From assembly GCF_045679555.1 (NCBI RefSeq), contig NC_092115.1, positions 36,154,728 to 36,218,727 of the forward strand: a DNA stretch of 64,000 nucleotides, read 5' to 3'. The translations under genes and the position numbers were made by a program. The notes under the pieces are model-generated. The model saw only the letters and a program-made list of their open reading frames with translations, was not told where the DNA came from and ran no database searches. Numbering within the stretch: position 1 is the stretch's first letter; every line of letters starts with the position of its first letter. This document shows positions 1,130-51,092 of this stretch, piece by piece. This DNA comes from Salvelinus alpinus (taxonomy: Eukaryota; Chordata; Actinopteri; Salmoniformes; Salmonidae).

Positions 1130-1735
1130 TTCCATTTCTTAGCTGCTTTGAATGAGAAGGGCTTCCCCATGAAGGTGCTGGTGCTGCCGGTGCCCATGGC
1201 GAGCACAGGGGCAACCCTCTACTACCAGCGCCGACACAGCCGCACCCTGCTCCTCTACGACCTGGTTTTCGAGAGCCTGGCGGCAAGTCTGGAGCTCCGA
1301 CATGCCGGCTTTCATGGCCAGCACCCCTACTCTTGGGGCGGCTACACAGACATCAACCTGGCGGTGGACGAGCAGGGCCATTGGGCCATCTACAGCCCCA
1401 GTAAGGCCAAGGGAGCCATCGTGGCGTCCCAGCTGGACCATGAGAGCCTGGAGGTGAAGAGGAGTTGGGAGACCAACATCAGGAAGAACGCAGTGGCTAA
1501 CACCTTCGTGATCAGCGGTCGGGTCTACACAGTGGCCCCAGACACCACCGTCAACCACGTGTTCGGCAGGGCCACCGGCCAGGGCCGAGGCATGGCGGTG
1601 CCCTTCAAGATCCACTACCGTTACAACAGCATGGTGGACTACAACCACGCCCAGAGGAAGCTCTACGCCTGGGACAACTTCCACATGATCACCTACGACG
1701 TCAGGTTGGGGAAACCCAGCGGAAACAGCCAATAA
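1130..1735 (+). pseudogene. myoc: Myocilin-like olfactomedin-domain remnant (last exon)
   Basis: An open frame reads into a C-terminal olfactomedin domain closest to vertebrate myocilin, a secreted glycoprotein with a five-bladed beta-propeller. Landmarks in order are a KVLVLPVPM strand, HGQHPYSWGGYTDI, LAVDEQG, KGAIV, SWETNIRK, a VAN motif, YRYNSMVDYN and YAWDNFHMITYDVRL, then TAA at 1733-1735. Homology starts near human residue 318, so the N-terminal leader, coiled coil and first propeller part are missing. By human numbering, Ca2+-ligand Asp380 reads Asn, disulfide Cys433 reads Ser, and a few residues are missing after STGA and before TTVN. N428 and D478 are kept. I infer a decayed duplicate. 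Other olfactomedin genes (olfml3, olfml2) fit less well at the C terminus. No upstream exon is visible; TE remnants begin just 5'. Confidence 0.8.
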
Positions 1736-1900
1736 GAGGAGGCTGGGCAAAGATGATGGATTGGTGTGGAGTGCTGTTACTAAAATATTATCAACCAATA
1801 TCATTACTAACAGCTTTCTAATAAGTTCATAGTGAGGCCTTTGTTTGTGTGCGTTACTCTGTCTAGTAGAATGTACTAATGTAAACAACATGAATCTTAC

Positions 1901-1906
1901 AATAAA
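1901..1906 (+). terminator. Candidate poly(A) signal of the myoc remnant
   Basis: AATAAA lies about 165 bases after the stop codon; a second AATAAA occurs near 2002. Both are plausible leftovers of the original 3' UTR. Confidence 0.4.
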
Positions 1907-1911
1907 ATACG

Positions 1912-2548
1912 TCACTACGGTGGAACTCTTTGTGCTACTCCATGTAAACAATCTAAGATATTGCTCTTCCTGTATTATATATTATGTCTTTAACTTATTT
2001 TAATAAAAAAGTGCACTGTATTGTCCATGTTAATTTTCTACTAAAGTTGTATCTTCACTCTTCACCATTACTTTGTCATTTTATCTCGAAGTAAAATGTA
2101 AATGATAGAGATCCCTAAAAAGATTATCAGTCTGCATTTGTTTTGTTCAATAAATTACAGTGGGACAATTTGCTCAGAATATCATTCATGACTACACGAT
2201 ACAAACATGTGAGGATATAACTGCAGGTTGTAAACATCCAAAGAAAAAGTTACATGTTTTTTTGTCCCTTGTGTATTTCCATTTCCTGTATTTCCATTTG
2301 CCGAATCAATTTCATGAATTCCAAAGCCTTGAGATACACATTAAACTACAGAATAAGCCACAGTACATGAAGTGCAGAGCATTTCAGACAATAGACGTTG
2401 CAGGTTTGTTTTTAACCTATCATGTGGTGCCATCTGCTGGCCATTAGTTGACGTGTCTAGTATCAGATCAAGGAGTTGTACAACATTACAGCTATGTAAC
2501 CTTGAATCTGCACTGAGACATATTCAGTGTGGATTCCAGGTTAACAGT
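1912..2548. other. Non-coding stretch, nothing recognised
   Basis: AT-rich sequence between the myoc remnant and the next transposon. Short frames here lack any recognisable domain. Confidence 0.4.
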
Positions 2549-2550
2549 TA

Positions 2551-3358
2551 CACTACATGGCCAAAAGTATGTAGACACGTGCTCGTCAAACATCTCATTA
2601 CAAAAACATGGGCTTTAATATGGAGTTGGTCCACCCTTTGATGCTTCCACTCTTCTGGGAAGGCTTTCGACTAGATGTTGGAATATTGCTGTGTGGTCTT
2701 GCTTCCATTCAGCCACAAGATCATTAGTGAGGTTGGGCACTGATGTTAGGCGATTAGGTCTGGCTCGCAGTCGGCGTTCCAATTCATCCCAAAGGTGTTC
2801 GATGGGGTTGAGGTCAGGGCTCTGTGCAGGCCAGTCAAGTTCTTCTACACCGATCTCGACAAACCATTGATGTATGGACATCGCTTTGTGCACGGGGGCA
2901 TTGTCATGCTGAAACAGGAAAGGGCCTTCCTCAAACTGTTGCCACAAAGTTGGAAGCACAGAATCGTCCAGAATGCCACTGTATTCTGTAGCGTTAAGAT
3001 TTCCCTTCACTGGAACTAAGGGGCCTAGTCCAAACCATGAAAAACAGCCCCAAACCATTATTCCTCCTCCACCAAACTTTACAGTTGGCACTATGCATTC
3101 GTGCAGGTAGCGTTCTCCTGGCATCTGCCAAACCCAGATTCATCTCGATTGCCAGATGGTGAAGCGTGATTCATCCCTCCAGAGAGCGCGTTTCCACTGC
3201 TCCAGAGTCCAATGGCGGAGAGCTTTAGACGACTCCAGCCGACGCTTGGCATTGCGCATGGTAATCTTAAGCTGTGTGTGGCTGCTCGGCCATGGAAACC
3301 CATTTCATGAAGCTCCCGACGAACAGTTCTTGTGCTGACGTTGCAACCGATGACAGAC
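2551..3358 (-). mobile_element. Tc1-like transposon, truncated, transposase on minus strand
   Basis: A TA dinucleotide at 2549-2550 precedes the terminal sequence 'cactacatggccaaaagtatg', typical of a salmonid Tc1-like family. On the minus strand the C-terminal transposase part is readable at 3124-2615: a [14 protein letters not shown] strand, [11 protein letters not shown] (second catalytic Asp), [15 protein letters not shown] (third catalytic Glu) and [10 protein letters not shown]. The N-terminal DNA-binding region and the far inverted repeat are missing beyond about 3358. Frames are interrupted, so it is not expected to be active. Confidence 0.85.
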
Positions 3359-4185
3359 AATTTTATTTCATTCTCACAGGCTCACCCACAGGATTTCACT
3401 TCCTGTCCAACGATAAGATAAAGAAATAAACTATGCGGTTTGATACTTCCCTTCATTTGATTCTTTTTTAGTGTGAAGGTGATGGATTGGCAACGTCTTT
3501 ATTGACTGTCATTACAAAACAGTGTATGTCAGTGCTTCCCAGTAGAACATGTGACACACAAAACAATATCATAAATTCTGATCCACCCATCAACATTTTT
3601 TCTTTTCAAACTATAATAGCTCTGGGAGCTTTGACAAGTAAATATAATGAAATATATATATTCCCATCCGTAGAGTCAGTGCATAAATGCAACAGTGCAT
3701 TTTACAACTATTAGGCTTGGCCTTTTCATCAACTGTTACTGTATGCCACTTGGCAATTGGTAGAATAGAATGAAATTCTGTAAATGCGTTGCATACCCCT
3801 CAAAAAGATATACAGAGAAATGTTTCCCAACTTGTGTTAACAATTGCGTTTTTCTATTCAATTCTAGCTCATTTTAAAACAGAATACAACCATTCTCTTG
3901 GCCACTTGTGCTTTTGCTAAGACAGTCAAAAATACCCTCTTCCCACAAACGAATGCAATATCAGACACTTTCTTGAATTGATGGGACTTTGGCAAACAAC
4001 ACAGCTCTGCCCAACACTGTCCATTAACTTAATGCAGCTTAATGCAGCTTGTTGTGGTTAGTCCCAACGAGTTCACAATGCATATGCTGCACGTAATTGC
4101 GCATAGGCTACTCATCTACATAGTGCAAAGTGTGCAGATGGACCCCTGAGGGACATTATGCAGGACTGGAGAGGAACCATCTGTC
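3359..4185. other. Non-coding stretch, nothing recognised
   Basis: AT-rich sequence with only short frames and no recognisable domain or repeat family. A small perfect doublet 'cttaatgcag' occurs near 4028-4048. Confidence 0.35.
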
Positions 4186-4257
4186 GTGTACTAATATGAC
4201 ATCACCACGTCAGTAAGAATGCTGGGTTCTTGATGCACCGACAGTCGTGGAGTAAAC
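4186..4257 (+). repeat. Left copy of a ~70-bp imperfect direct repeat
   Basis: This stretch, containing 'gaatgctgggttcttg', is repeated with small indels at 5464-5523, on the other side of a LINE/SINE insertion. It contains CRE-like 'cacgtcag'; the right copy has 'gacgtcag'. Confidence 0.6.
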
Positions 4258-4282
4258 CAGGCTATCCTAGGACAAAGGTAAG

Positions 4283-5140
4283 TCAAATCACATCACAATG
4301 TTATTTGTCACACGTGCCGAATACAACCAGCGTAGACTTTACTGTGAAATGCTTACTTACGACCCCTTTCCCAAAAATGCAGAGTAAAAAAAATAATGTT
4401 TTAAGAAAAGAAAGAGAATAAAAAATGAAATAGTAACAGAATAAAATACTGGGGCATCTGTCTAAGGCACTGCATCTTAGTGCTAGAGACGTCACTACAG
4501 ACTCTGGTTCGTTTCCAGGCTGTATCACAACCGGCCGTGATTGGGAGTCCCATAGGGCGGCACAGTATTGGCCCAGCGTCGTCCGGGTTAGGGTTTGGCC
4601 AGGGTAGGAGGTCATTATAAATAACAATTTGTTCTTAACTGACTTGCCTAGTTAAATAAAGGTTAAATAAAAAATACATAACAATAACGAGGCTATATAC
4701 AAAAAGTACAGGTACCAAGTCAATGTGCAGGGGTACAAAGTAGTTGAGGTAATTTAGGTAATATGTACTTGTAGGTAGGGGTAAAAGTGACTAGGCAATC
4801 AGGATAGATAATAAACAGTGTAGCAGCAGCATGTTTGAAGAGTGTGAAAGTGTGTCTATGTGTGTGAGCGTATGGGGTAGAGTCCAGTGAGTGTGCATAG
4901 AGCCAGTGCCATAATGTCAATAAAAAAGGGGGTCAATGCAAATAGTCCGGGTAGCCATTTGATTAACTGTTCAGCAGTCTTATGGCTTGTGGGTAGAAGC
5001 TGTTCAGGAGCCTTCTGGTGCCAGACGTGGTGCTCCGGTACCACCTGCCGTGCGGTAGCAGAGAAAACAGTATATGACTTGGATGGCTGGAGTCTTTGAA
5101 AATGTTTAAGGCCTTCCTTTGACACCGCCTGGTATCAAAC
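4283..5140 (-). mobile_element. LINE family A, 3'-end copy, antisense
   Basis: Reads in reverse as the 3' part of an abundant salmonid LINE (jockey/Rex1-like group, here called family A). The LINE 3' terminus lies at the left ('ttatttgtcacacgtgccgaatac'). The region 4960-5135 encodes, on the minus strand, the degenerate tail of the reverse-transcriptase protein (compare SHRLFSLLPHGKRYRSAKS in the copy at 11.5 kb). It is 5'-truncated, as LINE copies usually are, and a SINE interrupts it. Confidence 0.75.
4446..4672 (+). mobile_element. tRNA-derived SINE (SlmI-like) inside LINE A
   Basis: A tRNA-like head with 'tctaaggcactgcatctta' and a B-box-like 'ggttcgtttcc' (4506-4516) is followed by a body ending in 'cttgcctagttaaataaaggttaaataaa'. 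That tail is shared with the SINE at 62.3 kb and resembles the LINE-type tail at 48.9 kb. The SINE splits the LINE copy, so it is the younger insertion. Confidence 0.8.
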
Positions 5141-5463
5141 TGCCTCAGAAGCTAACAGACTTTGTCGTTAAATAATTTCCCCACTGTTAGAGTTAAAGAA
5201 AACAAGCGTTATCTGAAAAATGGCAAGTACAATGGACTAATATAAATACTCTGAATGTTTGAGTTATTCTGTGAAAAAGATAAGGTGCAGAATGTTTTGT
5301 AGCAGAATAAATAAAAGGAATACCGTTTCTTTTTGCATATGGTAGAAAAAAGTAAGCTGATAAAGAAAAGTTGTTTATTGTTAACACAAAGGTTGCTGTA
5401 CAAGTGTTGTTGTGTATGTCAGGTTGACATTGAAGTTTATATCCAAGTAAAGGGGGGGATGAT

Positions 5464-5523
5464 GTGTACTGATATGACGTCAGTAAAGAATGCTGGGTTC
5501 TTGACCGACAGTCATGGGGTAAA
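5464..5523 (+). repeat. Right copy of the ~70-bp imperfect direct repeat
   Basis: Matches 4186-4257 apart from small indels and substitutions. It contains a perfect CRE/ATF palindrome core TGACGTCA at about 5475-5482. Confidence 0.6.
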
Positions 5524-5681
5524 GACATGTTGAAGTTTACCTCTGGGTCCATTTGATTCAATTCAGTATAATATCCAAATTTAGCACAAGTGGTAAATGT
5601 AGGCTGGAACACCATCTGTTCAGTTGAATCAAGTATTATGCCTAGGCTAGTATCAAAACAAAATGTCATACAATAATTCAT

Positions 5682-5710
5682 CCAATCAGAAGCTCAAAGG
5701 CCTATAAAAG
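5682..5710 (+). promoter_or_regulatory. Possible core promoter: CCAAT and TATA boxes
   Basis: CCAAT at 5682-5686 is followed by TATAAAAG at 5703-5710, a usual TATA motif, about 200 bases after a CRE at 5475. Downstream there is a short frame from an ATG near 5743 and a donor-like 'gtaaga' near 5818. No gene was recognised downstream, so this may be chance or a relic. Confidence 0.3.
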
Positions 5711-6170
5711 CGGTGGAAGGGCTTTGAAAGAAAAGGGATGCCATGCGTGGGGCGAACAATTCACTGAACGGAGAGTGTAACCGAAGCAATACGAGTTTGT
5801 GGTTTAAAACAATTGTTGTAAGAGCATCATTTTATTATTATCTAAAGATTAGAGCACAACAGTGTAGGATAGTCTATAAAAATCCAGATGACATAAATCC
5901 AACCCAGATGATAAAATATGAGTCTACTCACCTAAAACCAGGTTGAGCATCATCTCTTGCTCTGCAACCTAACATAGAAGGTGTAAAAGAAACTCCTGAA
6001 ACTACAATAGATCCTCTACTTACTGGTCTTGATGGGAAGAAAAAAAAACTGTCAGGGGAGGTTCTCTTCTGCACTGTTCAACCAATCCAGTAAATGTGGA
6101 GGAGGGGTTCAAATGGAGTGTCCTCTTGTTAACGTCCAATAGCGGAAGTCGCATCACAGGCTCTCTTTTG

Positions 6171-6545
6171 TCATCCGGTTGTTGGGGACTTAGCAGAGGC
6201 TACTTGCTCTGTGATGGTTTCATCCCGGAGTAGACAGTACAAGGTGCCGATGAACCAGGGCACAAAGTGTCCGGTGATCTCCACCAGCTTCACTAGGGTC
6301 CGGATGCTGCACCAGGACGAGTCCTCACAGACGCACACCCCTAGCCGTTTGGAGGGCCACAGGTCAATGGATAAAAACAACCTCAGGATGATAACAAGAA
6401 TGCACTGATTGAAAGACACAGAGTAAACCTCCGTCTGCGCCCCGGCTGCAGAAGAGGGGAGAGGGGACATAGGAACAACTGGAGCCTCTGAGGCAGGATG
6501 GGCACTTAGACGTCCACTAACGGCTCGCTGTGATAAACTCGAATT
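6171..6545 (-). pseudogene. plpp6: plpp6-like (phospholipid phosphatase 6) gene fragment
   Basis: The minus strand encodes two membrane-helix-like segments and a linker: FLSIDLWPSKRLGVCVCEDSSW, then SIRTLVKLVEITGH and VPWFIGTLYCLLRDE. This matches the N-terminal third of PLPP6/PLPP7-type phosphatases (human PLPP6 reads IDLW.SK.LGVCAGESSSW and LLEISGHGIPW..GTLYCL). PLPP6 dephosphorylates polyisoprenoid and presqualene diphosphates in ER/nuclear membranes. Similarity stops after RDETITEQV and a stop codon follows; the KxxxxxxRP and PSGH catalytic motifs are absent. The upstream end is cut at about 6546 by LINE and transposon sequence. It is therefore a dead fragment. PLPP6 is intronless in human as I recall, so no splicing is required. 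Confidence 0.7.
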
Positions 6546-6597
6546 ACAAATCAAATTGCATTTGTCACATGCGCCGAATACAACAGGTGTAGTAGAC
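6546..6597 (-). mobile_element. Terminal 3' tag of LINE family A
   Basis: 'caaattgcatttgtcacatgcgccgaatac' is the antisense 3' terminus of LINE family A, as at 4283 and 11480. Only about 50 bases remain, abutting the Tc1-like fragment that follows. Confidence 0.6.
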
Positions 6598-6970
6598 CTT
6601 ATGGAATTGGCTGGATGTCCTTTGGGTGGTGGACCATTCTTGATACACACGGGAAGCTGCATGAAAAACTCAGCAGCGTTGCAGTTCTTAACACAAACTG
6701 GTGCGTCTGGCACCTACTGCCATACCCCGTTCAAAGGCGCTGAAATCTTTTGTCTTGCCCATTCACCCTCTGAATGGCACACATACACAATCCACGTCTC
6801 AATTGTCTCAAGGCTTATAAATTCTTCTTTAACCCATTTCCTCCCTTCATCTACACTGATTGAAGTGGATTTAACAAGTGACATCAATAAGGGAGCATCG
6901 CTTTCACCTGGATTCACCTGATCAGTCTGTCATGGAAAGAGTTCTTAATGTTTTGTATACTCAGTGTAGG
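6598..6970. mobile_element. Tc1-like transposon end fragment
   Basis: The right end 'gttcttaatgttttgtatactcagtgta' matches the terminus at 920-942. The body contains no open transposase frame. Confidence 0.55.
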
Positions 6971-7397
6971 TCAGTTGGTTGTGTCAGGCTAACGAGGTCG
7001 AGACGTCAGAGAAAAAACTGCTTTACTTACTGCTCAAATGATTTGTTGTCTGAGCCCACTCAATGAAAACGCTGACTCTGAAATGTCAATGGGTGCAAGA
7101 TCTCTGTGGCCTTACTTGAGGCCAGCTACATGCCACTTTTACTTTCCTCCTGGTTCTTAGCTACATGATGAAATCAAACATTTGAATGGAACTTTAGGCT
7201 GCTTAACATACGTTTTATTAAAGTGTATTAAACATTGAAATAACAATTTCTTACCCTGATCTAAAAGCAATAGTGGTCAAATAATGAAACACAGGAGCCA
7301 GGTGGACAGAGGCTGTCATTCCTCTGCTAGGCCCCTACTCTCTCTCTCTCGCTGTTTCTGTCCCTCTATCTATCACCCCCCACCCTTCTCTCTGTAG
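6971..7397. other. Non-coding stretch; expected prdx6 exon 1 not seen
   Basis: The region ahead of prdx6 exon 2 was scanned for the first coding exon (a MPG...FHDFLGDS-type peptide); none was found. It contains a CT-rich run at 7333-7380 that would serve as the polypyrimidine tract of exon 2. Confidence 0.4.
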
Positions 7398-8527
7398 CTG
7401 GGGTATCCTGTTCTCCCACCTCTGTGACTACACTGCTGTCTGCACCACAGAGCTGGGCCGAGCCGCCAAACTCAGCTGTGAATTTAGCAGGAGCAACATA
7501 GAGATGATCGCACTGTCCATCGACAGTCTGGAGGACCATCGTGTCTGGACCAAGGTTTCGGTTGCTTCCCAAATGGCCCCCTATTCCCTTTATAGGGCAC
7601 TACTTTTGACCAGGGCCCATAGAATAGGGTGCCGCTTGGGCTAAAGCCATAGTTTTGAGTGCCTATACCATTGACCAGTGCGTTTAGTAATAGAGGGGCT
7701 GTGCTGTGATCCTGTAAGACATCCTAGCCTACAACAATGAGGAAGGAGTCTGGCTGTGCGTTCCTCTTCCCCATCATAGCAGACAGTCACAGGAAGCTGG
7801 CAGTGGCCCTGTGCGTGCTGGACCATGATGAGAAGTACAAGGACGGCATTCCCCTTACTGCCACTGTGTGAGTGTCAAAACACACGCATGCATGAACGCA
7901 CACCTACAGGCACGCACACCTACAGGCACACACACACACTCTCTCTCAGACAGCCTTTCTCTCTCTCCACTGTTTCTCAGTTTCCGGTATGACTCATTGG
8001 CCCACCATGAGATCATCCTGCTCTTTCTTGTGCTCTATTTCCCATAAACGTTACTTATTCATGCTGATGCAAGCAGCCCATCTTCACTGGTTAATAAGAG
8101 TTAGCTACCCCTCCCACCCAGGCCCCACCACCCCGTCTCGCAAAAACACACTACCTCAGCCCCTTGCTGGATACGATGACGTAATCTTATATGTATCAGT
8201 GAGGGTGATATCACCACATGATGATTACTAATGAACACAGCTCACTAGCTCATATTTGCTACACTCCCCATCTCTGTCAAACGCACACTTTCTCTCTCTA
8301 ACTGTTTGCCATATGAGTAAACCCATCCCCTACCTGCCTAATTCCTTCCCACCAAAGTGTGACATGTTTGTGTGTCAAGAAATATTTTCATTGGCCCAGA
8401 CAAAAGGTTGAAGCTGTCCCTGCTCTACCCTCCCACAATAGCACGGAACTTTGATGAGATCCTGAGAGTGGTTGACGGCCTGCAGCTCACAGCACAGAAC
8501 CAATTGGCCACCCCTGCTGACTGGCAG
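7398..8527 (+). pseudogene. prdx6: Peroxiredoxin 6 remnant, exons 2-4
   Basis: Three spaced exons match 1-Cys peroxiredoxin 6, a cytosolic/lysosomal peroxidase with phospholipase A2 activity. Exon 2 (7398-7555) follows 'tctctgtag' and reads WGILFSH, then VCTTELGRAAKL with the peroxidatic Cys kept, and IALSIDSLEDH. Exon 3 (7719-7865) reads DILAYNNEE, then after a +1 shift FPIIADSHRKLAV and ending GIPLTAT before 'gtgagt'. Exon 4 (8369-8527) reads IFIGPDKRLKLSLLYPP, ARNFDEILRVVD and TPADWQ before 'gtcagc'. Exon phases fit vertebrate PRDX6. Damage: the exon-2 donor lacks GT at the expected phase, exon 3 has a net frameshift between NNEE and FPII, Pro45 is Ala, and exons 1 and 5 are not found. MYOC and PRDX6 are neighbours in human, which supports a decayed syntenic block. 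Confidence 0.85.
7567..7640. mobile_element. Short palindromic MITE next to prdx6 exon 2
   Basis: The ends 'cccaaatggccccctattcc' and 'gaatagggtgccgcttggg' are inverted repeats. The middle 'gcactacttttgaccagggc' is a common salmonid MITE sequence. It lies 12 bases after the exon-2 boundary. Confidence 0.65.
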
Positions 8528-8779
8528 GTCAGCCAGTCCCTCTCGAACTCCATAGCCTGAAAGTAGCCAAGTCTCACTATATAGAGTAGCATTTGCAGCT
8601 TTCTCCAGGAACTATTATTAGTCAAATATAAATGGCAGCTTGAGTGACCCTATAGACAATCAGTTAACATCAGCATTCATCACTGCAACTATTTGTATTG
8701 CTCTCCAAATACTTGGAACCCACTGTCAGAGCGATAGCAGTTGGCATTCAGTACAACATCAATTGGCATGGCACGGATG

Positions 8780-8939
8780 GTGCATTCGGAAAGTATTCAT
8801 ACCCCTTCCCTTTTTCCACATTTTGTTACGATACAGCCTTATTCTAAAATGTATTAAATATATATTTTTACTCAACAATCTATACACAATACCCGATAAT
8901 GACAAAGAGAAAACAGGTTTTTAGAAATGTTTGCAAATG
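8780..8939. mobile_element. Isolated terminal piece of a Tc1-like transposon
   Basis: 'gtgcattcggaaagtattc', 'ccttccctttttccacattttg' and 'caatacccgataatgacaaag' match the inverted-repeat region of the family that is nearly complete at 52234-53787 and at 16038. It is directly followed by another transposon. Confidence 0.7.
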
Positions 8940-9008
8940 TACAGTACCAGTCAGAAGTTTGGACACACCTACTCAATCAAGGGTTTTTATTTTTCTACGT
9001 TGTAGAAT

Positions 9009-10417
9009 TGTAACGGCTGATTTCCTCGGCAGACGGGCAGCTCAGATGGCGCTGGGCAGACGGGCAGCTCAGACGGCGCTGGGCAGACGGGCAGCTCAGA
9101 CGGCGCTGGGCAGACGGGCAGCTCAGACGGCGCTGGGCAGACGGGAGACTCTGGCGGCTCAGGACAGACGGGAGACTCTGGCGGCTCAGGACAGACGGGA
9201 GACTCTGGCGGCTCAGGACAGACGGGAGACTCTGGCTGCGCTGGAGAAAAGGGAGACTCTGGCAGCGCTGGACAGGCGGGAGCAACTGTAGAGAGAAAAC
9301 GGAGAGACAGCCTGGTGCGGGGGGCTGCCACCGGAGGACTGGTACGTGGAGGTGGCACCGGATATACCGGACCGTGAAGGAGTACAGGTGCTCTTGAGCA
9401 CCGAGCCTGCCCAACCTTACCTGGTTGAATGCTCCCCGTAGCCCGGCCAGTGCGGCGAGGTGGAATAGCCCACACTGGGCTGTGCTGGCGAACCGGGGAC
9501 ACCATGCGTAAGGCTGGTGCCATGTACGCCGGCCCGAGGAGACGCACTGGAGACCAGATGCGTTGAGCCGGCTTCATGGCACCTGGCTCGATGCCCAACC
9601 TAGCCCGGCCGATACGAGGAGCTGGAATGTATCGCACCGGGCTAAGCACACGTACTGGTGACACCGTGCGCTCCACCGCATAACACGGTGCCTGACCAGT
9701 ACGACGCCCTCTCTCTCCACGGTAAGCACGGGGAGTTGGCTCAGGTCTCCTACCTGGCTTAGCCACACACCCTGTGTGCCTCCCCCCAATAACCTTTTGG
9801 GGCTGACTCTCGGGCTTCCAACCGCGTCGCCGTGCTGCCTCCTCATACCAGCGCCTCTCTGCCTTCGCTACCTCCAACTCTGCCCTGGGACGGCGATATT
9901 CCCCTGGCTGAGTCCAGGGTCCCTTGCCGTCCAGAACCTCCTCCCAAGTCCATGAATCCTGTGTCTTCTGCCGCTGCTGCTGCTGTCCTTTACCACTCTG
10001 CTTGGTCCTTGGTTGGTGGGTGTTTCTGTAACGGCTGATTTCCTCCTCTTCGTCTGAAGAGGAGGTGTAGCAGGGTTCGGACCATAGCGCAGAGTGGTAA
10101 GTGTCCATGTTTTAATATAATTTACTAAACACGACAAAATATACAAAATAACAAAGTAACCTAACCGAAACAGTCCCATGTGGCACGAACACAGACACAG
10201 GAAACAAACACCCACAAACCAACAGTGAAAACAGGCAACCTAAATATGATTCCCAATCAGAGACAATGCAAAACACCTGTCTCTGATTGAGAACCATATC
10301 AGGCCAATTGACAAACCTAAACATAGAAACACATAACATAGACTGCCCACCCCAAATCACGCCCTGACCATACTAACTAAAGACAAAACAAAGGAAAATA
10401 AAGGTCAGAACGTGACA
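9009..10417 (-). mobile_element. LTR-retrotransposon relic with a 5-bp target duplication
   Basis: A 391-bp terminal repeat with TG...CA ends occupies 10027-10417. Its first bases (TGTAACGGCTG) recur at 9009, marking the shortened other end. AGAAT flanks both sides (9004-9008 and 10418-10422), a perfect 5-bp target-site duplication in the Tc1-like host. Between them lie a proline-rich internal stretch read on the minus strand and a minisatellite. Most internal parts expected of a complete element are absent, so it is broken and non-autonomous. Superfamily was not determined. Confidence 0.65.
9033..9290. repeat. 27-bp minisatellite array
   Basis: About five units of a 27-bp repeat of the type 'cagacgggcagctcagacgg...' are followed by about five units of a related 27-bp type with 'gggagactctggcggctcagg'. 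Because 27 is a multiple of 3, both strands stay open here, which explains long proline-rich frames. Confidence 0.85.
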
Positions 10418-10513
10418 AGAATAATAGTGAAGACACCAAAACTATGAATTAACACATATGGAATCATGTAGTAACCAAAACAAATATTAAACAAATACAA
10501 ATATATTTAATAT

Positions 10514-10896
10514 TTATCCGACCTCAGGATAAGACCCAGATGCAGAGAGTTCGAATCACAGATGTTTATTAACAAAACAGGGGGCATGCAGACGACAGGT
10601 CAAGGGCAGGCAGAGGTCGGTAATCCAGGGTAGTGTCAGACAGGTACAGAACGGTAGGCAAGCTCAGGGTCAGGGCAGGCAGTGGTCAAAACCGGAAAAA
10701 CTAGAAAAACAGGGGCAAGAGAGAAACAGAAGTACGGGAAAACCACGCTGGTAGGCTTGATGAGACAAGACGAACTGGCAACAGACAAACAGGAAACACA
10801 GGTATAAATGCACAGGGGATAAATGGGGAAAATGGGCGACACCTGGAGGGGGGTGGAGACAAGCACAAGACAGGTGAAACAGATCAGGGTGTGACA
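10514..10896 (-). mobile_element. Solo-LTR-like relic
   Basis: Read on the minus strand it begins TGTCACACCCTGATCTG and carries an AATAAA-type signal near its end. It is the same family as the relic at 42019-42402 ('cagatcagggtgtgaca' versus 'cagatcagggcgtggca'). It interrupts the Tc1-like element with near-identical 5-base flanks (atatt/atact). Confidence 0.6.
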
Positions 10897-12774: not shown

Positions 12775-12776
12775 TA

Positions 12777-41280: not shown

Positions 41281-41382
41281 CCATCATTTAGACACACATA
41301 CAGAGTACACCCTCCCCAATAATCAACCAAACCCACTGCCAAAATCCATCCTACCCCTCTCTCCTCCTGTTCTATAGCTCAC

Positions 41383-41471
41383 CTGGCCCGAGAACCTGTG
41401 TCCTTCCAGGACAGGAAGTCAAGAAGGTCCAGAAAGTGGGTGGCGTCCCACCAGCAGGTCTCTCTCATGTT
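41383..41471 (-). pseudogene. fggy: fggy exon [16 protein letters not shown]
   Basis: 89 bp between 'ctttggtcag' and 'gtgagc', phase 0 to 2. Encodes [19 protein letters not shown] and KDTGSRA, matching human [20 protein letters not shown] and KATGVTA. Confidence 0.85.
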
Positions 41472-41609
41472 CTGACCAAAGAATTAAGGGTAGGGAGGAA
41501 ATTACATTAAAACGTCAGGGCAATAAACAAACATCACTTAGGAAAACTAGCCAATCAGCAGAGTCCACCATTAAAACTGTCTGTTGACTTATAATGGGTG
41601 ACCTCTGAC

Positions 41610-41736
41610 TGCTTTCAGCCAGAGCAGCTTGGGAGGCTGCATCTCTGATGATATCACCCCTCCAACCCTGCCCAGGACCCTGTGGCCGGTGCTGGTGATG
41701 CGTCCATCCACATCACCACGTTCCACTCAGCCTCAC
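41610..41736 (-). pseudogene. fggy: fggy exon [18 protein letters not shown], frameshifted
   Basis: 127 bp between 'ccctgtgtgtag' and 'gtcaga'. It starts in frame as [13 protein letters not shown], then the reading frame changes and continues [30 protein letters not shown]. About ten residues expected in between (human DHRAVSQVNR) are missing by a deletion that is not a multiple of three. Confidence 0.8.
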
Positions 41737-41875
41737 CTACACACAGGGCAACAGAGGAGGAGGAGACATTTTGACCAAGACTTTCAAGTTGAAACATTGC
41801 ACTCAATAAAACTGCATGAGCATTCAACAGTGTTAGTGCGGGTATCCATCTACTTTTCACCACTCTCTCACTCAC

Positions 41876-41957
41876 CATCTTGGTTGATGGCTACAGGGTG
41901 GAAATTCTGGTTCAGGACCACAATAGAACAGATAGCATCAAAACCCACCCCTCAGAC
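41876..41957 (-). pseudogene. fggy: fggy exon GFDAICSIVVL
   Basis: Encodes GVGFDAICSIVVLNQ, NFHPVAINQD and ends in phase 1 before 'gtgagtgag', matching human [24 protein letters not shown]. The Arg expected just before GVGFD is a TGA codon, consistent with a CpG transition of CGA. The acceptor is uncertain. Confidence 0.75.
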
Positions 41958-42018
41958 CTGGCTCCTCTGCACTCCCTGGGTCACCCTCTGTCACATGAAT
42001 ATGGTGTTCGAAACATGT

Positions 42019-42402
42019 TGTTATGACACAAGGCGAGACCCAGATGCAGATGGTTGGAGTCTTACAATATTTATTAATCCAATAGGGGAAGGCAAGAGAA
42101 TGGTCGTGGACAGGCAAAACTGTCAAAACCAGTTCAGAGTCCAAAAGGTACCGAAGGGCAGGCAGAATCAAGGTCAGGGCAGGCAGGATGATCAGGCAGG
42201 CGGGAAAGTAGTCCAGAGTCAGGCAGGGGTCAAAACCGGGAGGACTGGCAAAAAGAGAATAGCAAAAGGAATACTGGAAAAACACGCTGGTTGACTTGAC
42301 TAACAAACAAGATGAACTGGCATAGACACTGGGGCAAATAAGCGACACCTGGAGGGGGTGGAGACAATGAGAGGAATAGGTCAAACAGATCAGGGCGTGG
42401 CA
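42019..42402 (-). mobile_element. Solo-LTR-like relic in an fggy intron
   Basis: A 384-bp block with TG...CA ends, same family as 10514-10896 (shared 'cccagatgcag', 'aaaaccggga' and 'cagatcaggg' words). No internal region. It lies directly upstream (in gene direction) of the fggy exon at 41876-41957. Confidence 0.6.
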
Positions 42403-42780
42403 GTTGTTTATGCTTTGGTTTTGTATTGCTGCTGAATATAAGGACAACATTTTGCAAAACGGCAATAAGTATCCATAAAGGCCTTGGAGTTAAGCGTCAT
42501 ACTAATCTACGCCAATAATGACAGAAATTCCTAGAGAATACATCCCTTTGCAGAGCACTTAAGTCATACCTACACAATCTCAAATAGCCTGAACACTAGT
42601 CTGATTAACCATACCTACCAGGGAAACTAAAGTACAAACCGCACAGACAACCGGTAGAGAAAGTTCAAATGTAATTATATTGTACGGTATAAATTTCAAC
42701 GATTTTGCACACAAATATCTCAGGCTGTATACCAATGAATTGTGTATTACTCTGATTAATCAGAATATCCTAACACCTAC

Positions 42781-42981
42781 CCTAACTGTGCTACAGCACT
42801 TAGACCAGATGTCAGTGGATGACTGGACATAATGGTCTGAGTGAGGCTCCCAGATGGTGACAGGCTCCTCTGCAGTAGTCTTCATCTGTCCCTCCCTGGT
42901 GACCAGAGCAGCCCTCACTCTGGCTGTCCCCACACCCACATAGTGCCACTCTACTGGACCTGACTCAACTATGAACAACAC
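42781..42981 (-). pseudogene. fggy: fggy exon with the kinase N terminus
   Basis: 201 bp, phase 0 on both sides, between 'ctctcctgcag' and 'gtaggt'. Encodes EWHYVGVGTARVRAALV and VTIWEPHSDHYVQSS, TDIWSKCC, aligning to human GSVRAALV, IKNWEPQFNHHEQSS and EDIWAACC. The Asp of the nucleotide/metal-binding loop is missing by a 6-base in-frame loss. Confidence 0.85.
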
Positions 42982-42982
42982 C

Positions 42983-43448
42983 TGCAGGAGAGAGAGAAAT
43001 CATTAACCAAGGTTACTAGGGTAAGTCAGGATCTGTTTTTTATAGGTTATGGTCCCAAACATTTATTTAAAACGTATAAACATATGTAGAGACTCATTGA
43101 TAGAGTGTAAAAATACCAAAACTATTGCACTATGGTGAGTGATCAAATTGTTTTGTGTGGAGTTTCAACCATAATTTCGGTCTCCGTTCAGTCTGCTGCA
43201 TTTTACAATTTATTGTGCAAAACATGACTCTCTAAACATTTGATTTAAACAGGGACACCACGACGGGAAACTTTAACTTTTTTGAAACATTACTTTACGT
43301 CGAAGTTCACAATTTATGTTGATAACTTCCACGACAACGTTCTGATTTCCAACTTAACGCATTAGTGGCCAAAAAGGGTACGTCGTTGTGGTCTCGCATA
43401 CCAAGGCATGTGTGTATTCATTCAGACGATTCTGTTGCGAAACGTTTC
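42983..43448. other. Dispersed repeat interrupted by the TTAA element
   Basis: The sequence ending 'tgttgcgaaacgtttcttaa' continues after the TTAA element as 'ttaaacagaaataaaagaaac...' (44895 onward), which together resemble a common salmonid repeat. Nothing coding is seen. Confidence 0.45.
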
Positions 43449-43452
43449 TTAA

Positions 43453-44894
43453 CTTCTTATGGCTGCAATCCCGTTAACAGGATGATATGACAACAGCCAG
43501 TGAAAGTGCAGGGCGCCAAATTCAAACAACAGAAATCTCATAATTAAAATTCCTCAAACATACATGTATCTTATACCATTTTAAAGGTAATCTTGTTGTT
43601 AATCCCACAAGTGTCCGATTTCAAATAGGCTTTACAGCGAAAGCACCACAAATGATTATGTTAGGTCACCGCAAAATCACAGAAAAACACAGTAATTTTT
43701 CCAGCCAAAGACAGGAGTCACAAAAAGCACAAATAGAGATAAAATTAATCACTAACCTTTGATGATCTTCATCAGATGACACTCATAGGACTTCATGTTA
43801 CACAATACATATATGTTTTGTTCGATAAAGCTCATATTTATATCCAAAAACCTCAGTTTACGTTGGCGCCATGTTCAGAAATGCCTCCAAAATATCCGGA
43901 GAAATTGCAGAGCCATGTCAAATAACATAAATACTCATCATAAACTTTGATGAAAGATACATGTTTTACATAGAATTAAAGATACACTTGTTCTTAATGC
44001 AACCGCTGTGTCAGATTTCAAAAAAGCAAAAGCACAATATTCAATAATCTGAGAACAGCGTTCAGCCACAAAAGGAAGCCATACAGTTACCCGCCAAATT
44101 GTGCAGTCAACAAAACTCATAAAAAGCATTATTAATCTTCACTTACCTTTGTTGATCTTCGTCGGAATGCACTCCCAGGACTCCCACTTCCACAAGAAAT
44201 GTTCGTTTTGTTCAGTAATGTCCATCATTTATGTCCAAATAGCTATTTTTGTTAGCGTGTTTGGTAAACAAATCCAAAGTCAGGAAGCGCGTTCACTAAA
44301 AGCAGACGAAATGTCAAAAAGTTCCGTAACAGTCCGTAGAAACATGTCAAACGATGTATTGAATCAATCTTTAGAATGTTTTTAACATAAATCTTCAATA
44401 AAGTTCCACCCGGAGAATTACATTGACTTCAGATGTGCGATGGAACAGAGCTCCCTCTCATGTGAACGCGCATGGTCAGAGCATGGCCAGGTCATGGTAG
44501 ACCTGACTATTTCCTGTCTCCTTCGGCCCCACTTCACAGTAGAGGCATCAGACAACGTTCTACAGACTGTTGACATCTAGTGGAAGCCGTAGGAAGTGCA
44601 AACTCATCCATATCCCACTGTGTGTTCAATAGGGGCTGTGTTGAAAATCGACCAACCTCAGAATTCCCACTTCCTGTTTGGATTTTTTCTCAGGTTTTTG
44701 CCTGCCATATGAGTTCTGTTATACTCACAGACATCATTCAAACAGTTTTAGAAACTTCAGAGTGTTTTCTATCCAATATGAATAATAATATGCATATATT
44801 AGCAACTGGGACTGAGGAGCAGGCAGTTTACTATGGGCACCTCTGTGCACCTTTCATCCAAGCTACTCAATACTGCCCCTGCAGCCATAAGAAG
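43453..44894 (+). mobile_element. TTAA-family non-coding DNA transposon, 1.44 kb
   Basis: Flanked by TTAA (43449-43452 and 44895-44898). Terminal inverted repeats CTTCTTATGGCTGC and GCAGCCATAAGAAG are perfect over 14 bases. Long blocks are nearly identical to 32424-33499; this copy is longer by about 370 bases in its right half. Confidence 0.85.
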
Positions 44895-45059
44895 TTAAAC
44901 AGAAATAAAAGAAACAAAACAGGGAGGGACTTAACTGAATTTGTCCAATAGAAAATCTTGTTTTAATTACACCCCAGTCCAGAGAGGTTTCTCTTTGGTT
45001 TGGTCAGCTTCGTAAACAGTGAGTCTGCGACACTGGCAGCTCATTATCCTACACACACA

Positions 45060-45720
45060 AATCTGAAATTACATTAGCCCACTAAATGTGCCGAATTTAA
45101 AGACTTTAGGTCAAATGCCCCGTTTTGAAATTCGGTACATAGCTCCCTCTCCTCACAAGGAACAAATTTGCCTCAGGGACCCATAAGGTCTGCCATGATG
45201 GATTTTTTTGAATTTTGTTAAAATGCTACTCTTCTGGCACCAAATGACTGATCTGGACAAAACTTGACGTGTCATCTATGAACAAAAGTCTCTCAACACA
45301 ATATTTTCCAGACTAGTACCTAAAATAACATGGTCGCTGTTGACCATTAAACACTCACGTGGGCGTGGTCTGGCTTATAAATGCATATAAATCCGTCAAG
45401 GATATTCGTATTGTAACACAATTTGATACACATGTTGCAAACACTGTTAAGACTCAATATGTCTTAATCTGTTTGACTCAGAGTGCTGAAATTTGGCTTA
45501 CATGCTCAGGGATACGAGTCTAGCTAACCCACACGATATCTCAGACACCGCTGGCCTGATTTTGACAAAACATGGGTGAATGAAGCATCTTGCCATAGAG
45601 AATTCTCATTTACAACAGTACACTGATTGGCCCAAGGGGGGCATTGCATAATTCATGGGGGGTGACATGTTTACTGTTGCCTTATTTTAAAGTGAGGATG
45701 TCAGGAAACGAATCTATATG
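45060..45720. repeat. Member of a long non-coding repeat shared with 54.1 kb
   Basis: 'caaatttgcctcagggacccataaggtctgcc' matches 'aaatttgcctcaaggacccacagg' near 54200. Dispersed repeat, family unknown. Confidence 0.5.
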
Positions 45721-47420
45721 TATAAAAAAAGCTCTGCCAAAATTATACCTTCAAATGGTATTGGCCTCAATTGAAAAAAAGGCATACACTTCTTAGAAAT
45801 GGGTGATAATAACAAGTCAGGGTCATTAGAGTCTAACAGATTTTTTTTTTAAACATTCAGTCAGAATTGGAAGACAATCCTATTGACCCTGCCAATACTA
45901 CAAGGGCGAATACAGTATCTTACTATTGTGTTATTTTCTTAAAGTATAAACACTTAAAGCCAAGGGGAAACAGAGAAGCAGTGTACAGTTAGCAGGCTGT
46001 GTTTGGGTCATACATAAATAGAGGGGAGAGAGAATAGAGGAAGGAGAGGATGGAGGAAAACATAGCAGCAGGACAGGAAGAAACAGATGGTCGTTAACAA
46101 ACACTGTAGACATGTTTAACATACACACGAGTGAGTGAGTGGGTAATCTAACTTTCCTCTATTTATGAACAACAAATGCAAAGGGCACTCTCCACATTTT
46201 GGATAGAGCAGAGCACAGACAGGAAGAGTGTGTTTTCATGGGCTTAGGATCCATCACTTTCCAACAAAGAACAGCTTATGGCAGCTGGGTCTGGGTCTAA
46301 ACTCTTGATTACGCCTCATTTCCAGATGCATCAAACTATTTGCGTTCCGGCGGAAGTCATTCATTGTCAATGAAGCAGTCCGCAACCCTACGTTGGGGTG
46401 CCGCAATAGGCTGTGGTGCATTCTGTGTACTGCATGCATTCAATATTTTCAAATCGTGGGTTGCTTTACCGCGCGGTGGTACAAACGGAAGTACAGTCAC
46501 AGACTCTAACAAGCTAACTTTTAGCTACTGTAGTTGAAAAGCGAAGCACATGTGCGTCAAGTACGGAAAATGTGGACTAGACATCCAGCAAAACAAAGCG
46601 CATATGCATCTGTTGGACATCGGGCAATAGACCTCCATGCAGTGGAAGCAGCTGGCTGAGCCAGGGGGAAGAAGATGGTGTTATCTAGAGGTTACCCATC
46701 AGGCCACTGAACAGGAAGCAGGTACAGAGGAACAGGAAGTATGGCCAGGTCAGCTGAAGGCTGATGGGAAAATTCCCAGTTACAGCAATAAACACAGCAG
46801 CGTGCTGGGGGATATGTGTAAACCTATTTTATCTTCAGCAAAGAGACCGCTGAGAGACCAGTCTCAAGTCTTACTAGCTCCATACAGAGAATGCAGGTGT
46901 GTTTTTCTTTTTTGGCTTATGTGTGTTTGATCTGTCCCTGTGACTGTGTGCATGACTGTGGTATTGGAACGTTGTTGTTGAACCCATTATAGTATCATTA
47001 TCGTGACAGAAGGAACAGACTTTCCAAAATATTCCAATCTGGAATTCCAACTAAAGGTGTCAATATCTCCAAATGGTGGTTGTTGTTCCGCTGTCAAGGC
47101 AACCTGAAGACAAGCGTGTCATCTCAGGGTTGATCTCACAGCAAGGACAGAGCACAGAGACAATAACAGTGCTATCAGTCCATGAGTTTGCTTGAGACTG
47201 AGGAGCAACACTGAGGCCCATAGAGCTCTACTGGAACTGTAAGGAGTTTCTCCACACATTGCATATTACAGACAGATCATAAGACATATTTCCATCTATT
47301 CAGGAAAATAATGAAAAACCTAGTTAGAGAGTTTACATTCAGTAATGCTAATACCTAGGATATGTATTTGCATGGTAGTACCTATGTAATTACAGTGTAG
47401 AAACACATTGTTGCTACATA
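45721..47420. other. Non-coding stretch, nothing recognised with confidence
   Basis: Short frames only. 46250-46620 has repeat-like sequence ('gcggtggtacaaacggaag') of unknown family. Confidence 0.35.
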
Positions 47421-47904
47421 CAGGTAACTGCCAAAATAATGGAAGCACTTGAGGGATACAAAGTATATTGAAAACAGGTTCTTCCACACAGGTGTGGTTC
47501 CTGAGTTAAATAAACAATGAACATCCCATCATGCTTAGGGTCATGTATAAAATTGCTGGGCAGGCCATTATTTTGGCTATTTCTTTGAGGATGAGAATGC
47601 CCCCATCCACAGGGCACGAATGGTCACTGAATGGTTTGATGAGCATGAAAACGATGTAAACCACATGCCATGGCCATCTCAGTCACCAGAGCTCAACCCA
47701 ATTGAACACCATCAACAAAACACAAAATGATGGTATTTCTTGTGGAAGAATAGTGTTGCAACCCTCCGATAGAGTTCCAGACACTTGTAGAATCTATGCC
47801 AAAGTGCATGGAAGCTGTTCTGTCTCGTGGTGGCCCAACGCCAAATTAAGACACCTTATGTTGGTGTTTCCTTTATTTTGGCAGATGCCTACTTGTTATA
47901 CCTG
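47421..47904 (+). mobile_element. Internally deleted Tc1-like transposon (484 bp)
   Basis: Left end 'caggtaactgccaaaataatgg' after TA and right end 'ggtgtttcctttattttggcag' belong to a known-looking salmonid Tc1-like family. Inside, a short transposase scrap is readable: RARMVTEWFDEHEND-like and MPWPSQSPELNPIEH, where Glu at the third catalytic position is kept. Confidence 0.8.
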
Positions 47905-48097
47905 TACTTGAAGCACCCCTTAAAATGTGAGGCACAATGTTCTATTTGATATTCATTTGAACATTTTCCTTCCCCTATATAACCAATGCAGAAAGTATCA
48001 CCTGAAAAGCAAAACAAAAAAACAGGGGGAGCCACCCCCTTCCCTCGGCCCCCTCTCTCTCTCCCTCTCTCACACACACCAGAAGTAGTCACCTCCA

Positions 48098-49385
48098 AAA
48101 CGATTGACACCCTTGATAAAGATGAGCAAAAAAGACAATCAAATAAATAATTAAAATACTGAGCTATATCGTATGCTCAACATATCGAGAAAATTATATT
48201 ATTTTATAATAGCACAATTGCTAGTAGAAAGATATTTTGTTTAACAAGTAGCCTAATACTTATTGGCACCCTGGCTTTCAATACTCCAGCACCCTCCCCT
48301 TGGGAGGATAACGACAGAGCCTTTTTTTCAAATGTTTTATGAGATTGGAGAACACATTGGGAGGAATCATAGGACTTTCCTCCATACAGAATTTTTCCAG
48401 ATCCTTGATATCTTCGACTGCCCTCTTCAATTCAAACCACTGGTTTTCAATGGGTTCAAGTCCGGAGACTGATAAAATGATGATTTTATAGTCAATTAAC
48501 CATTTCTTATGGATTTGGATGTGTGCCTGAGGTTATTGTCCTGCTGGAAGATCCACTTGTGGCCAAGTTGCAGAGGCAACCAGGTTTTTGGCTAAAATGT
48601 CCTGGTACATGATGCCATTGATTTAACGAGGTTCCCAGTATCAGTGGAAGCAAAATAGCCCCATAACATCTATCACTCCAGTGTTCATTTGCTAAATTGT
48701 AATTACTTTGCTACTATGGCCTATTTATTGTCTTACCTCCTTACGCCATTTGCACACACTGTATATAGACTTTTTCTATTGTGTTATTGACTTTACGTTT
48801 GTTTATTCCAGGTGTAACTCTGTGTTGTTTGTGTCACACTGCTTTGCTTTATCTTGGCCAGGTCGCAGTTGTAAATGAGAACTTGTTCTCAACTGGCCTA
48901 CCTGGTTAAATAAAGGTGTGAAAAAAAAATACACCACATATTTTACAGTAGGTATGAGGTACTTTTCTGCATATGCCTCCATTATTTTAAGCCAAACCCA
49001 TCACTGGTGTGTGTGACCAAAGAGCTCTATTTTCATGTCATCTGACCATAGCACTGGGTCTAAGATCCCTCACAATGTGTTCTCCAATCTCATAAACATT
49101 TTAGAAAAAGGATGTGCCATTATCCTCACAAAGGTGCTGGAGTATTGAAAACAGGGCTGCCAATAATTATCTTTTTGTGAATTTTGTGATTTTTTTGTGA
49201 TTTTTTTAATCTTTTGTGATTTTTTTAAAATTGCTTGTTAAAAAAAAACATATCTTTCTCTGAGTAATTGTGTTAGTATTAAAAAAAAATCCCAATTTTT
49301 ATGCATGAAATATAGCTCACTATTTGAAATATTTATTTGATATCGCTTTTTTTTGCTAATCTTCATCAACGGTGCCAATAATTTG
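48098..49385 (-). mobile_element. Old Tc1-like transposon with a SINE/LINE-tail insertion
   Basis: Minus-strand transposase traces are visible as antisense words ('tgagattggagaacacattggg', 'gttattgtcctgctggaagatccac', 'ccatagcactgggtc'). Frames are fully broken. Ends are 'cgattgacacccttgataaa' and 'ggtgccaataatttgtgt'. An unrelated insertion splits it at 48670-48925. Confidence 0.7.
48670..48925 (+). mobile_element. LINE/SINE 3'-tail insertion
   Basis: It ends 'gtaaatgagaacttgttctcaactggcctacctggttaaataaaggtg' (cut here only for description at 48865-48918), a tail similar to that of the SINEs at 4446 and 62319. It interrupts the Tc1-like element in the middle of its catalytic region. Confidence 0.7.
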
Positions 49386-49570
49386 TGTGGTGACTGTGGT
49401 GCCAAATTGCCACGCTTCCACCTACAAAATCAAAGAGCAAAAGAAGGAAAGCAAATATTGTGAAAGCTGTTATTCAAAAGGAAATCTAGTCAACATGATT
49501 AAGATTGGGTTACGAAATAGAGCGGGTAACAATATTTTCAAAAACAATACGTAATCCCAGAGGACACCGC
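49386..49570. other. Unassigned sequence between transposon and jun promoter
   Basis: No repeat or coding signal recognised. Confidence 0.35.
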
Positions 49571-49582
49571 TCCTTTTACTGC

Positions 49583-49730
49583 ATTACCTAATCCCATCAA
49601 CCATTGCGGGAGGCGGGAACATGGCTGGTTGTCAACGCAACGTGCATGTCATTACAAAAAGTAACGCCCATCACATCATCTCAAACCAATAGGAAGCCTT
49701 AGAAATTACATCATTGTTATTTTCAGTATA
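49583..49730 (+). promoter_or_regulatory. jun: jun promoter-proximal region
   Basis: Order of sites: TTACCTAA near 49585 (compare the jun2 site TTACCTCA), CCAAT at 49686-49690, TTACATCA at 49706-49713 (compare the proximal jun1 site TGACATCA) and TTATTTTCAG at 49717-49726 (compare the MEF2 site CTATTTTTAG). In mammals the jun1 and MEF2 sites are adjacent in this same order just upstream of the start. Transcription would begin about 49740-49800, giving a 5' leader of 350-400 bases. Site identity is by eye. Confidence 0.65.
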
Positions 49731-50141
49731 GCAGCAGCATAGAAGTGGATAAAGTTCGTCTCCACGTTGGAAGTGCTAGAAAGTACATTGTATCGAGTGA
49801 GATACAACATCTGCTTAGAAAAGAAAAGCCTCATTTCAGTAGGCAAATCGAATAAAAAAATTCTTCATTGAAACAAAGACGCATATCGATTGAGGAAGTG
49901 AATATTTTTTGTTTGATACTATTCTTCTTTTTATCAATCCTCAAGAAAAGTTTCCACTTAGGACATCAAAAGTTATCCTCCGACTTGAGGTTCGAACATT
50001 AGTCTACTTGTCCTAAAACTGTCAAAAGATTGAGGACATCGGATTGCAGTTTATCACTCCAAATTGTTTATTGCAATTTCAACATTTGATGCTTTAATTT
50101 TTTTCCCAACAACTATCTTCGAGATAAAGACCAGTCAATTG

Positions 50142-51092
50142 ATGCCCACCAAGATGGAAGCTACATTCTATGACGAATCGTTAAATGGTCAGCAAGGCGC
50201 AGTGGGTGGATATCATGGGTTTAACCCGAATAGTATGAAGCAGAGTATGACACTGAACCTCAACGACCCTAAAATGTTTAAACCTCATCTGCGGGCGAAA
50301 GCTATCGATATACTGACGTCCCCTGATGTGGGATTATTAAAACTGGCCTCTCCGGAATTGGAAAGGCTCATCATCCAGTCCTGCAATGGTTTGACGACTC
50401 CGACCCCAACTCAGTTCCTCTGTCCCAAGAACATCACCGACGAGCAAGAGGGTTTTGCTGAGGGTTTCGTGAGGGCGCTCGCGGAGCTTCATTATCAACA
50501 GCATATGCCTAATGGCAGTTGTGACTCTCAGACGAATGCTTCCAACGACATGGCATCCGCCTCTACTGTGTCGGACAGTCCTATACCCTACAGCTGCACC
50601 GTGCGCCCCGAGCCACCGGAATACACAAACTTGGGCCTTTTCAATCGGGCTGTCAGCTCTGCGTCGGCACCTACCGGCGACAGACACTCCTCCGCCAGTT
50701 ATACGTCCGTCCCGTCCCAAACCCACATCGAGACCCAGCTGCCAGCCCAGCACCCACGGCTACAGCCATTCAAGGAGGAGCCCCAGACGGTGCCCGAGAT
50801 GAGCGGCGATACCCCTCCGATGTCTCCTATCGACATGGAGAACCAGGAGAGGATAAAGGCCGAGAGAAAGCGCATGAGGAACAGGGTGGCCGCGTCTAAA
50901 TGCCGGAAAAGGAAGCTGGAGAGGATATCGAGGCTGGAGGACAGGGTCAAAAACCTGAAGACCCAACACACAGAGTTGGTCTCTTCTGCCAACGTGCTCC
51001 GGGACGAACTGGCACTGCTCAAACAGAAGGTCATGGACCACGTTAACAGCGGGTGCCAACTCATATTGACGCAGCAGCTCCAGGCGTTCTGA
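50142..51092 (+). CDS. jun: Transcription factor AP-1 subunit c-Jun
   Basis: A single-exon 316-codon gene (human c-Jun has 331). The nuclear bZIP factor pairs with Fos/ATF partners and binds TGACTCA/TGACGTCA. The start at 50142 gives [15 protein letters not shown], matching human MTAKMETTFYDDALN; in-frame ATG 50064 lies in the leader and is not conserved. The delta/JNK-docking region is at 32-57 ([19 protein letters not shown]). JNK targets Ser60-Pro and Ser70-Pro correspond to human S63 and S73. [17 protein letters not shown] and [10 protein letters not shown] precede the basic region (235-263, with [13 protein letters not shown]). The zipper has Leu at 265, 272, 279, 286 and 293, and the protein ends [17 protein letters not shown]. 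The C terminus excludes junb and jund. The middle (115-210) is shorter than in mammals and Gly/Ala runs are absent. It appears intact. Confidence 0.97.

Follow-up and report, generated by a model that had tools for sequence, protein, structure and literature searches.

A decayed myoc, plpp6, prdx6 and fggy block beside an intact jun in Salvelinus alpinus, probably one of four copies descended from an ancestral linkage group

Introduction

In Atlantic salmon, pseudogenised fragments have been reported for 56% of 9,162 singletons, and gene retention was 20% after the teleost duplication and 55% after the salmonid duplication (excerpts of PMC8127823). We examined gene loss in a window of 64,000 nucleotides from Salvelinus alpinus (assembly GCF_045679555.1, contig NC_092115.1, here C30:36154728-36218727; "the window" means this whole stretch) within a genome of 2,367,770,401 bases in 928 contigs. 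Read along the window, relics of myoc, plpp6, prdx6 and fggy follow one another and precede an intact jun. An earlier note, made from the letters alone, had described damaged host genes beside one clean gene, and all five items are present in the sequence. It had also called human MYOC and PRDX6 neighbours; we take them to be linked but not adjacent. The gene named Ppapdc2 is here taken to be plpp6.

Two published loci share several of these genes. As described in excerpts of PMC4177693, a second mir-214 (miR-214-par) lies beside Myoc, Suco, Ppapdc2, Prdx6 and Jun, and an Acanthopterygii-only origin of this copy, with transposition, is preferred there. A table of single-nucleotide polymorphisms on rainbow trout chromosome 4, in the part of PMC9332390 available to us, gives the order prdx6, plpp6, PRRC2C, vamp4, myocilin. 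A literature search combining myoc, fggy and salmon returned nothing matching, and a term search of the accessible text of PMC8789304 and PMC4159003 gave nothing about the gene block.

Results

Four copies of the block

The window is very probably one of four descendants of an ancestral block, formed by the teleost and then the salmonid duplication and thinned by two layers of loss. The block was found on four chromosomes in two sister pairs, C30/C23 and C6/C16, a pairing that rests on identities and not on a tree. Jun protein identity was 0.915 for C30-C23 and 0.915 for C16-C6, and 0.64-0.66 between pairs. Myoc protein identity was 0.852 and 0.951 within pairs and 0.72-0.80 between them, and prdx6 exon 2 showed 86% identity within the pair versus 67% and 59% to the other two copies. 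For the plpp6 fragment, closeness within the pair was not clear (65% versus 63% and 61%).

Genome-wide searches located the copies gene by gene. Among 71 jun-family bZIP matches were those on C30, C23, C6:29651933 and C16:26600403, with long open frames in all four. Myocilin-like matches above 70% identity were the first four of 41 (C30, C23, C16:27037933 and C6:30029176); a TAG in the C6 match is the stop that ends its frame. Exon 2 of prdx6 gave four matches, on C30, C23, C6 and C16. The first exon of plpp6 was open for 225 amino acids at C16:26809159 and 209 amino acids at C6:29834128, with PAP2 matches 3-4 kb further. All 13 matches to the fggy model TIGR01315 fell on C23 (8), in the window (4) or on C10 (1), and the fggy exon-9 peptide had a single genome match, on C23. 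Searches with TIGR01315, FGGY_C and the exon-9 peptide found no fggy on C6 or C16. FGGY_C itself had five matches, one each on C10, C20 and C23 and two on C30 at 10.8 Mb. On C16 and C6 the olfactomedin exon of myoc was interrupted by about 170 bases that look like an intron (at 1334-1501 and 1329-1504, counted within the respective myoc stretches); on C23 it was unsplit.

Intact-looking copies numbered four of four for jun and mir-214, three of four for the last exons of myoc, two of four for plpp6 and one of four for fggy. For prdx6 the count was probably three of four, with C6 and C16 judged by exon 2 only. On C6 and C16, jun, prdx6, plpp6 and myoc lay together inside about 0.4 Mb, which bears out the ancestral linkage proposed in the earlier note. 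On rainbow trout chromosome 4, in the available part of PMC9332390, prdx6, plpp6 and myoc are ordered and spaced as on C6 and C16, so that this trout region resembles those two copies and not the window's copy.

The sister region on C23

To compare C30 and C23 base by base, the region was aligned by blastn with C23:20250001-20450000, covering about 90 kb of C30. The anchored minus-strand chain (Table 1) comprised 49 blocks and 23,031 aligned columns at 0.802 identity, gaps counted. With its flanks, it extended from C30:36134729 (C23 20431060) to window base 70433 (C23 20337553). As a control for shared repeats, chains were also built in the opposite orientation: the best unanchored chain scored 28360 bits over 60 blocks in the homologous orientation and 9648 bits over 20 blocks in the opposite one, ruling out chance matching to C23. 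Between positions -312 and 1157, C30 had about 1.5 kb versus 13.6 kb on C23; part of this difference may be an insertion on C23.

Exons on C23 were read by eye and their positions fixed with tblastn. Most exon peptide queries were drawn from C23 itself, and those C23 matches give positions only; the real tests on C23 were those of prdx6 exon 1, whose query was independent of C23, and of myoc exon 2, whose query came from C6. Read in this way, jun (an intact frame of 360 amino acids, minus strand, 20347082-20348161), fggy (14 exon peptides, plus strand, 20352821-20359424), prdx6 (five exons, minus strand, 20368904-20360797) and myoc exon 3 (minus strand) were whole, and plpp6 was not. Myoc exon 2 matched C23 weakly (E 1.4e-4); no search was made for exon 1. 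C23 keeps jun, fggy, prdx6 and the last exon of myoc in the order and relative orientation of C30, where the latter three are broken; this supports reading the window as one half of a duplicated gene block. The earlier note had expected intact myoc, prdx6, plpp6 and fggy on the sister chromosome. Three of the four were there, myoc as judged by its last exon; plpp6 was a relic on C23 and looked intact on C6 and C16 instead.

Over ungapped columns, identity between C30 and C23 was 0.932 in jun (886/951), 0.913 in myoc (526/576), 0.890 in the fggy exons (644/724), 0.878 in the prdx6 exons (390/444) and 0.810 in plpp6 (136/168). Non-coding DNA near the chain showed 0.884 identity with gaps and listed exons left out, a figure that takes all matches near the chain and may include repeats and unlisted exons. 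Seven of the 25 best 100-base windows were coding; of the other 18, 15 were upstream of the whole window and two (49600-49699 and 56394-56493) fell between myoc and base 57004. A conserved regulatory block within the relics, sought among these 25, found little support. Ten of the 25 (94-100% identical to C23) lay at window positions from about -12000 to -9100.

In favour of a segmental duplication that copied the block between C23 and C30, the base-level comparison of the two spans only about 90 kb of C30. However, matched C30/C23 pairs run in opposite order along the two chromosomes, between 15.9 and 36.5 Mb on C30: a jun-family pair at 15.9/41.7 Mb, olfactomedin domains at 17.3/40.4 and 32.2/24.0 Mb, the block itself at 36.2/20.35 Mb and 1-cysPrx_C at 36.5/20.06 Mb. 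An extra olfactomedin pair was found at 6.6/6.1 Mb, and C6 and C16 are paired in like manner. We therefore regard segmental copying as very improbable. Two sister pairs, close within and far between, together with the reversed-order C30/C23 pairs, fit a teleost duplication followed by a salmonid one.

Lesions on C30

The myoc relic (window 1157-1732, plus strand) showed 81% protein identity to the C23 exon, and its closest match elsewhere in the genome was C23:20379479-20380084 (84% of amino acids). The frame at 1052-1732 carried a Pfam olfactomedin domain and matched a solved myocilin (E 2.2e-66). Relative to the 267-residue C23 exon-3 peptide, the relic lacked the first 66 residues, and there were deletions of 15 and 12 bases. 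Exon 2 was not found on C30 by exon-peptide search; exon 1 was not sought. For prdx6, three of five exons could be traced, and exons 1 and 5 were not found on C30. Six of the 14 C23 fggy exon peptides were recognisable on C30, on the minus strand, and the other eight had no match there. Beside the plpp6 relic on C30 or C23, none of the 32 PAP2 matches in the genome was present. Individual lesions are listed in Table 1.

Table 1. Features of the window and the evidence for each (fggy exons in the numbering of this report)
Feature	Positions in window	Strand	Basis
Part collinear with C23:20380081-20343634 (minus strand)	1157..57004	.	blastn chain
myoc relic, last 201 of 267 residues of C23 exon-3 peptide, open to normal stop	1157..1735	+	C23 exon match, genome search
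plpp6 relic, first-exon fragment	6204..6404	-	65% amino-acid identity to C23, 63% to C16, 61% to C6
prdx6 relic exon 2, still open	7396..7554	+	86% amino-acid identity to C23
prdx6 relic exon 3, frameshifted	7718..7862	+	C23 exon comparison
prdx6 relic exon 4	8390..8527	+	C23 exon match
fggy relic exon 8	30484..30591	-	C23 exon match
fggy relic exon 7	36071..36178	-	C23 exon match
fggy relic exon 4	41382..41471	-	C23 exon match
fggy relic exon 3, 25-base deletion and 1-base insertion versus C23	41613..41731	-	C23 exon match
fggy relic exon 2, in-frame stop	41871..41984	-	C23 exon match
fggy relic exon 1, 6-base deletion	42781..42963	-	C23 exon match
jun coding sequence, intact, 316 amino acids, Jun and bZIP domains	50142..51092	+	open frame, Pfam

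Across the four copies, myoc, prdx6 and fggy were broken on C30 only and plpp6 on both C30 and C23. The fractionation of one ohnolog suggested in the earlier note holds for the first three genes; it does not cover the two layers of loss, with plpp6 broken on both sisters. Accordingly, plpp6 was rejected as a one-sided loss at the salmonid level. A shared C23/C30 breakpoint in plpp6 was not used as evidence: the PAP2 exon on C6 and C16 lies 3-4 kb further, and the shared end may be the end of an exon.

The window contains many transposon-like frames and pieces of long interspersed nuclear elements (LINEs), as might be expected if the relics were retrocopies, transposed pieces or other unrelated insertions. 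The chain to C23 contradicts this: the relic exons on C30 are spaced apart, with aligned non-exon DNA between them, and follow the order and relative strand of C23. Processed retrocopies were rejected since the exons are not fused and aligned DNA lies between them. There is almost no chance that unrelated insertion explains the relics. An assembly error or a haplotype-specific deletion could likewise make C30 look broken, but the lesions are several, of differing kinds and in three genes, and divergence is spread along the block, making such an artefact highly unlikely.

Substitutions in jun and in the myoc remnant

The jun frame was open from 50034 to 51092, with a likely start at 50142 and the Pfam Jun and bZIP domains in one frame (50034-51089). 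Between C30 and C23 the ratio of nonsynonymous to synonymous substitution rates (dN/dS, omega) was 0.21 (95% range 0.13-0.32), and codon changes private to C30 comprised 13 synonymous and 2 nonsynonymous ones. Amino-acid changes in jun numbered 5 on C30 and 8 on C23, with 14 of 27 unassigned. In myoc there were 18 on C30 and 4 on C23, with 5 of 27 unassigned (two-sided sign test, about 0.004).

Several points weigh against the proposed history. Pairwise omega for myoc was 0.20, below 1, and in four-copy branch tests the C30 branch of myoc did not differ significantly from omega = 1 (twice the log-likelihood difference, 2dlnL, 1.1) or from equal omega (0.95). The four-copy branch model of jun assigned hardly any change to C30; omega there ran to its upper bound, omega = 1 was not rejected (2dlnL 0.13) and an internal branch was saturated. 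The FGGY_C matches on C10, C20 and C30 at 10.8 Mb were taken, without test, to be other sugar kinases. We infer that plpp6 was lost before the salmonid split, where two separate losses are the alternative. In addition, excerpts of PMC8127823 report that genes kept after the teleost duplication were no more likely to be kept after the salmonid one, and that protein interactions had little bearing on retention. Because one duplication does not predict the outcome of the next in that source, a simple dosage explanation of jun is disfavoured.

The low pairwise omega would also suit a truncated C30 myoc frame that still gives protein through new 5' exons, as would the rest of the exon being open to its usual stop and both indels being multiples of three. 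In neutral simulations, however, the frame stayed open in 15-55% of runs (0.105-0.03 substitutions per site), and the open frame is therefore no sign of function. C30 also lacks the first quarter of the exon, its exon 2 could not be located, and it carries most of the amino-acid changes. A surviving myoc product from C30 thus seems very unlikely, and decay of the gene remains our preferred interpretation. Dating of the myoc loss was dropped when the neutral yardstick shifted from 0.802 (gaps counted, coding included) to 0.884 (gaps and listed exons excluded).

mir-199 and mir-214

Intact mir-199 (C30:36135070-36135149) and mir-214 (C30:36137474-36137574) hairpins lay 17-20 kb upstream of the window. 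A search for mir-214 gave eight rows, representing four places, one each on C30, C23, C6 and C16. An Rfam scan of 21 stretches placed mir-199 on C30 and C23. Both hairpins were intact on these two chromosomes, differing at 3/100 (mir-199) and 6/121 (mir-214) positions. On C30 and C23, mir-214 adjoins the prdx6, jun and myoc genes or relics, and prdx6 and jun are present on C6 and C16 too.

The miR-214-par locus in the available text of PMC4177693 has overlapping neighbours, and in tilapia, medaka and stickleback Jun is close by. There, in contrast, the second copy is confined to Acanthopterygii and Prdx6 lies beside it alone, whereas here both chromosome pairs carry mir-214 as well as prdx6 and jun, and the plpp6 of the C23/C30 copy is a relic. 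These sequences hint, short of proof, that the published age of the second mir-214 may be too young. Jun and the mir-199/mir-214 cluster flank the block on either side. Jun and mir-214 persist on all four copies, after what were probably two genome duplications, and genes lying between them have been lost. One reading, which we hold to be unlikely, is that the two regulators share a dosage or regulatory constraint; the second mir-214 would also date to the teleost duplication, as opposed to the Acanthopterygii-only view.

Transposons and other features

Two LINE copies, at window positions 38450-40412 and 58814-60775, both carrying a UnaL2 3' element, were 99.4% identical across 1966 columns. 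The second looks young because a frame of 859 amino acids with reverse transcriptase and endonuclease domains spans the copy. Tc1/mariner transposase-like frames were recognised by eye from translations at window positions 2615-3139, 12983-13621, 14678-15725, 26116-26475 and 28820-29323. Elsewhere in the genome, a peroxiredoxin C-terminal domain at C1:41525003 lay 4.6 kb from a bZIP frame of 337 amino acids at C1:41529631, a pair that we presume may be prdx2-junb.

Discussion

The four-way pattern would be explained by an ancestral linkage block of mir-199/214, myoc, plpp6, prdx6, fggy and jun. The teleost duplication would have given copy A, today on C6 and C16, and copy B, today on C23 and C30, each split in turn by the salmonid duplication. 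Copy A would have lost fggy and kept plpp6, and copy B would have retained fggy but not the PAP2 exon of plpp6. Following the salmonid split, C30 would have lost myoc (exon 2 and the 5' portion of the last exon), prdx6 (a frameshift and both end exons) and fggy (a stop, a deletion and 8 of 14 exons not found) through ordinary mutation, deletion and transposon insertion. These losses may have been tolerable because C23 has intact copies, which presumably work.

The suggestion in the earlier note that a regulator was kept as its neighbours were lost needs qualification: jun is intact here, but it was kept on all four copies and not here alone. Jun and mir-199/214 perhaps stay intact as dosage-sensitive regulators, which is a guess.

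Like the Atlantic salmon singletons described in excerpts of PMC8127823, the block combines one intact copy with a sister fragment in a collinear place. Unlike the very little evidence of loss through fractionation given there, three neighbours are broken here on one copy. The fragment and retention rates in those excerpts make the block typical of salmonids, and the process of gene loss is ordinary and well known in these fishes. The block is a clear four-way example, with every loss assignable to a branch: fggy on copy A, plpp6 on copy B, and then myoc, prdx6 and fggy on C30.

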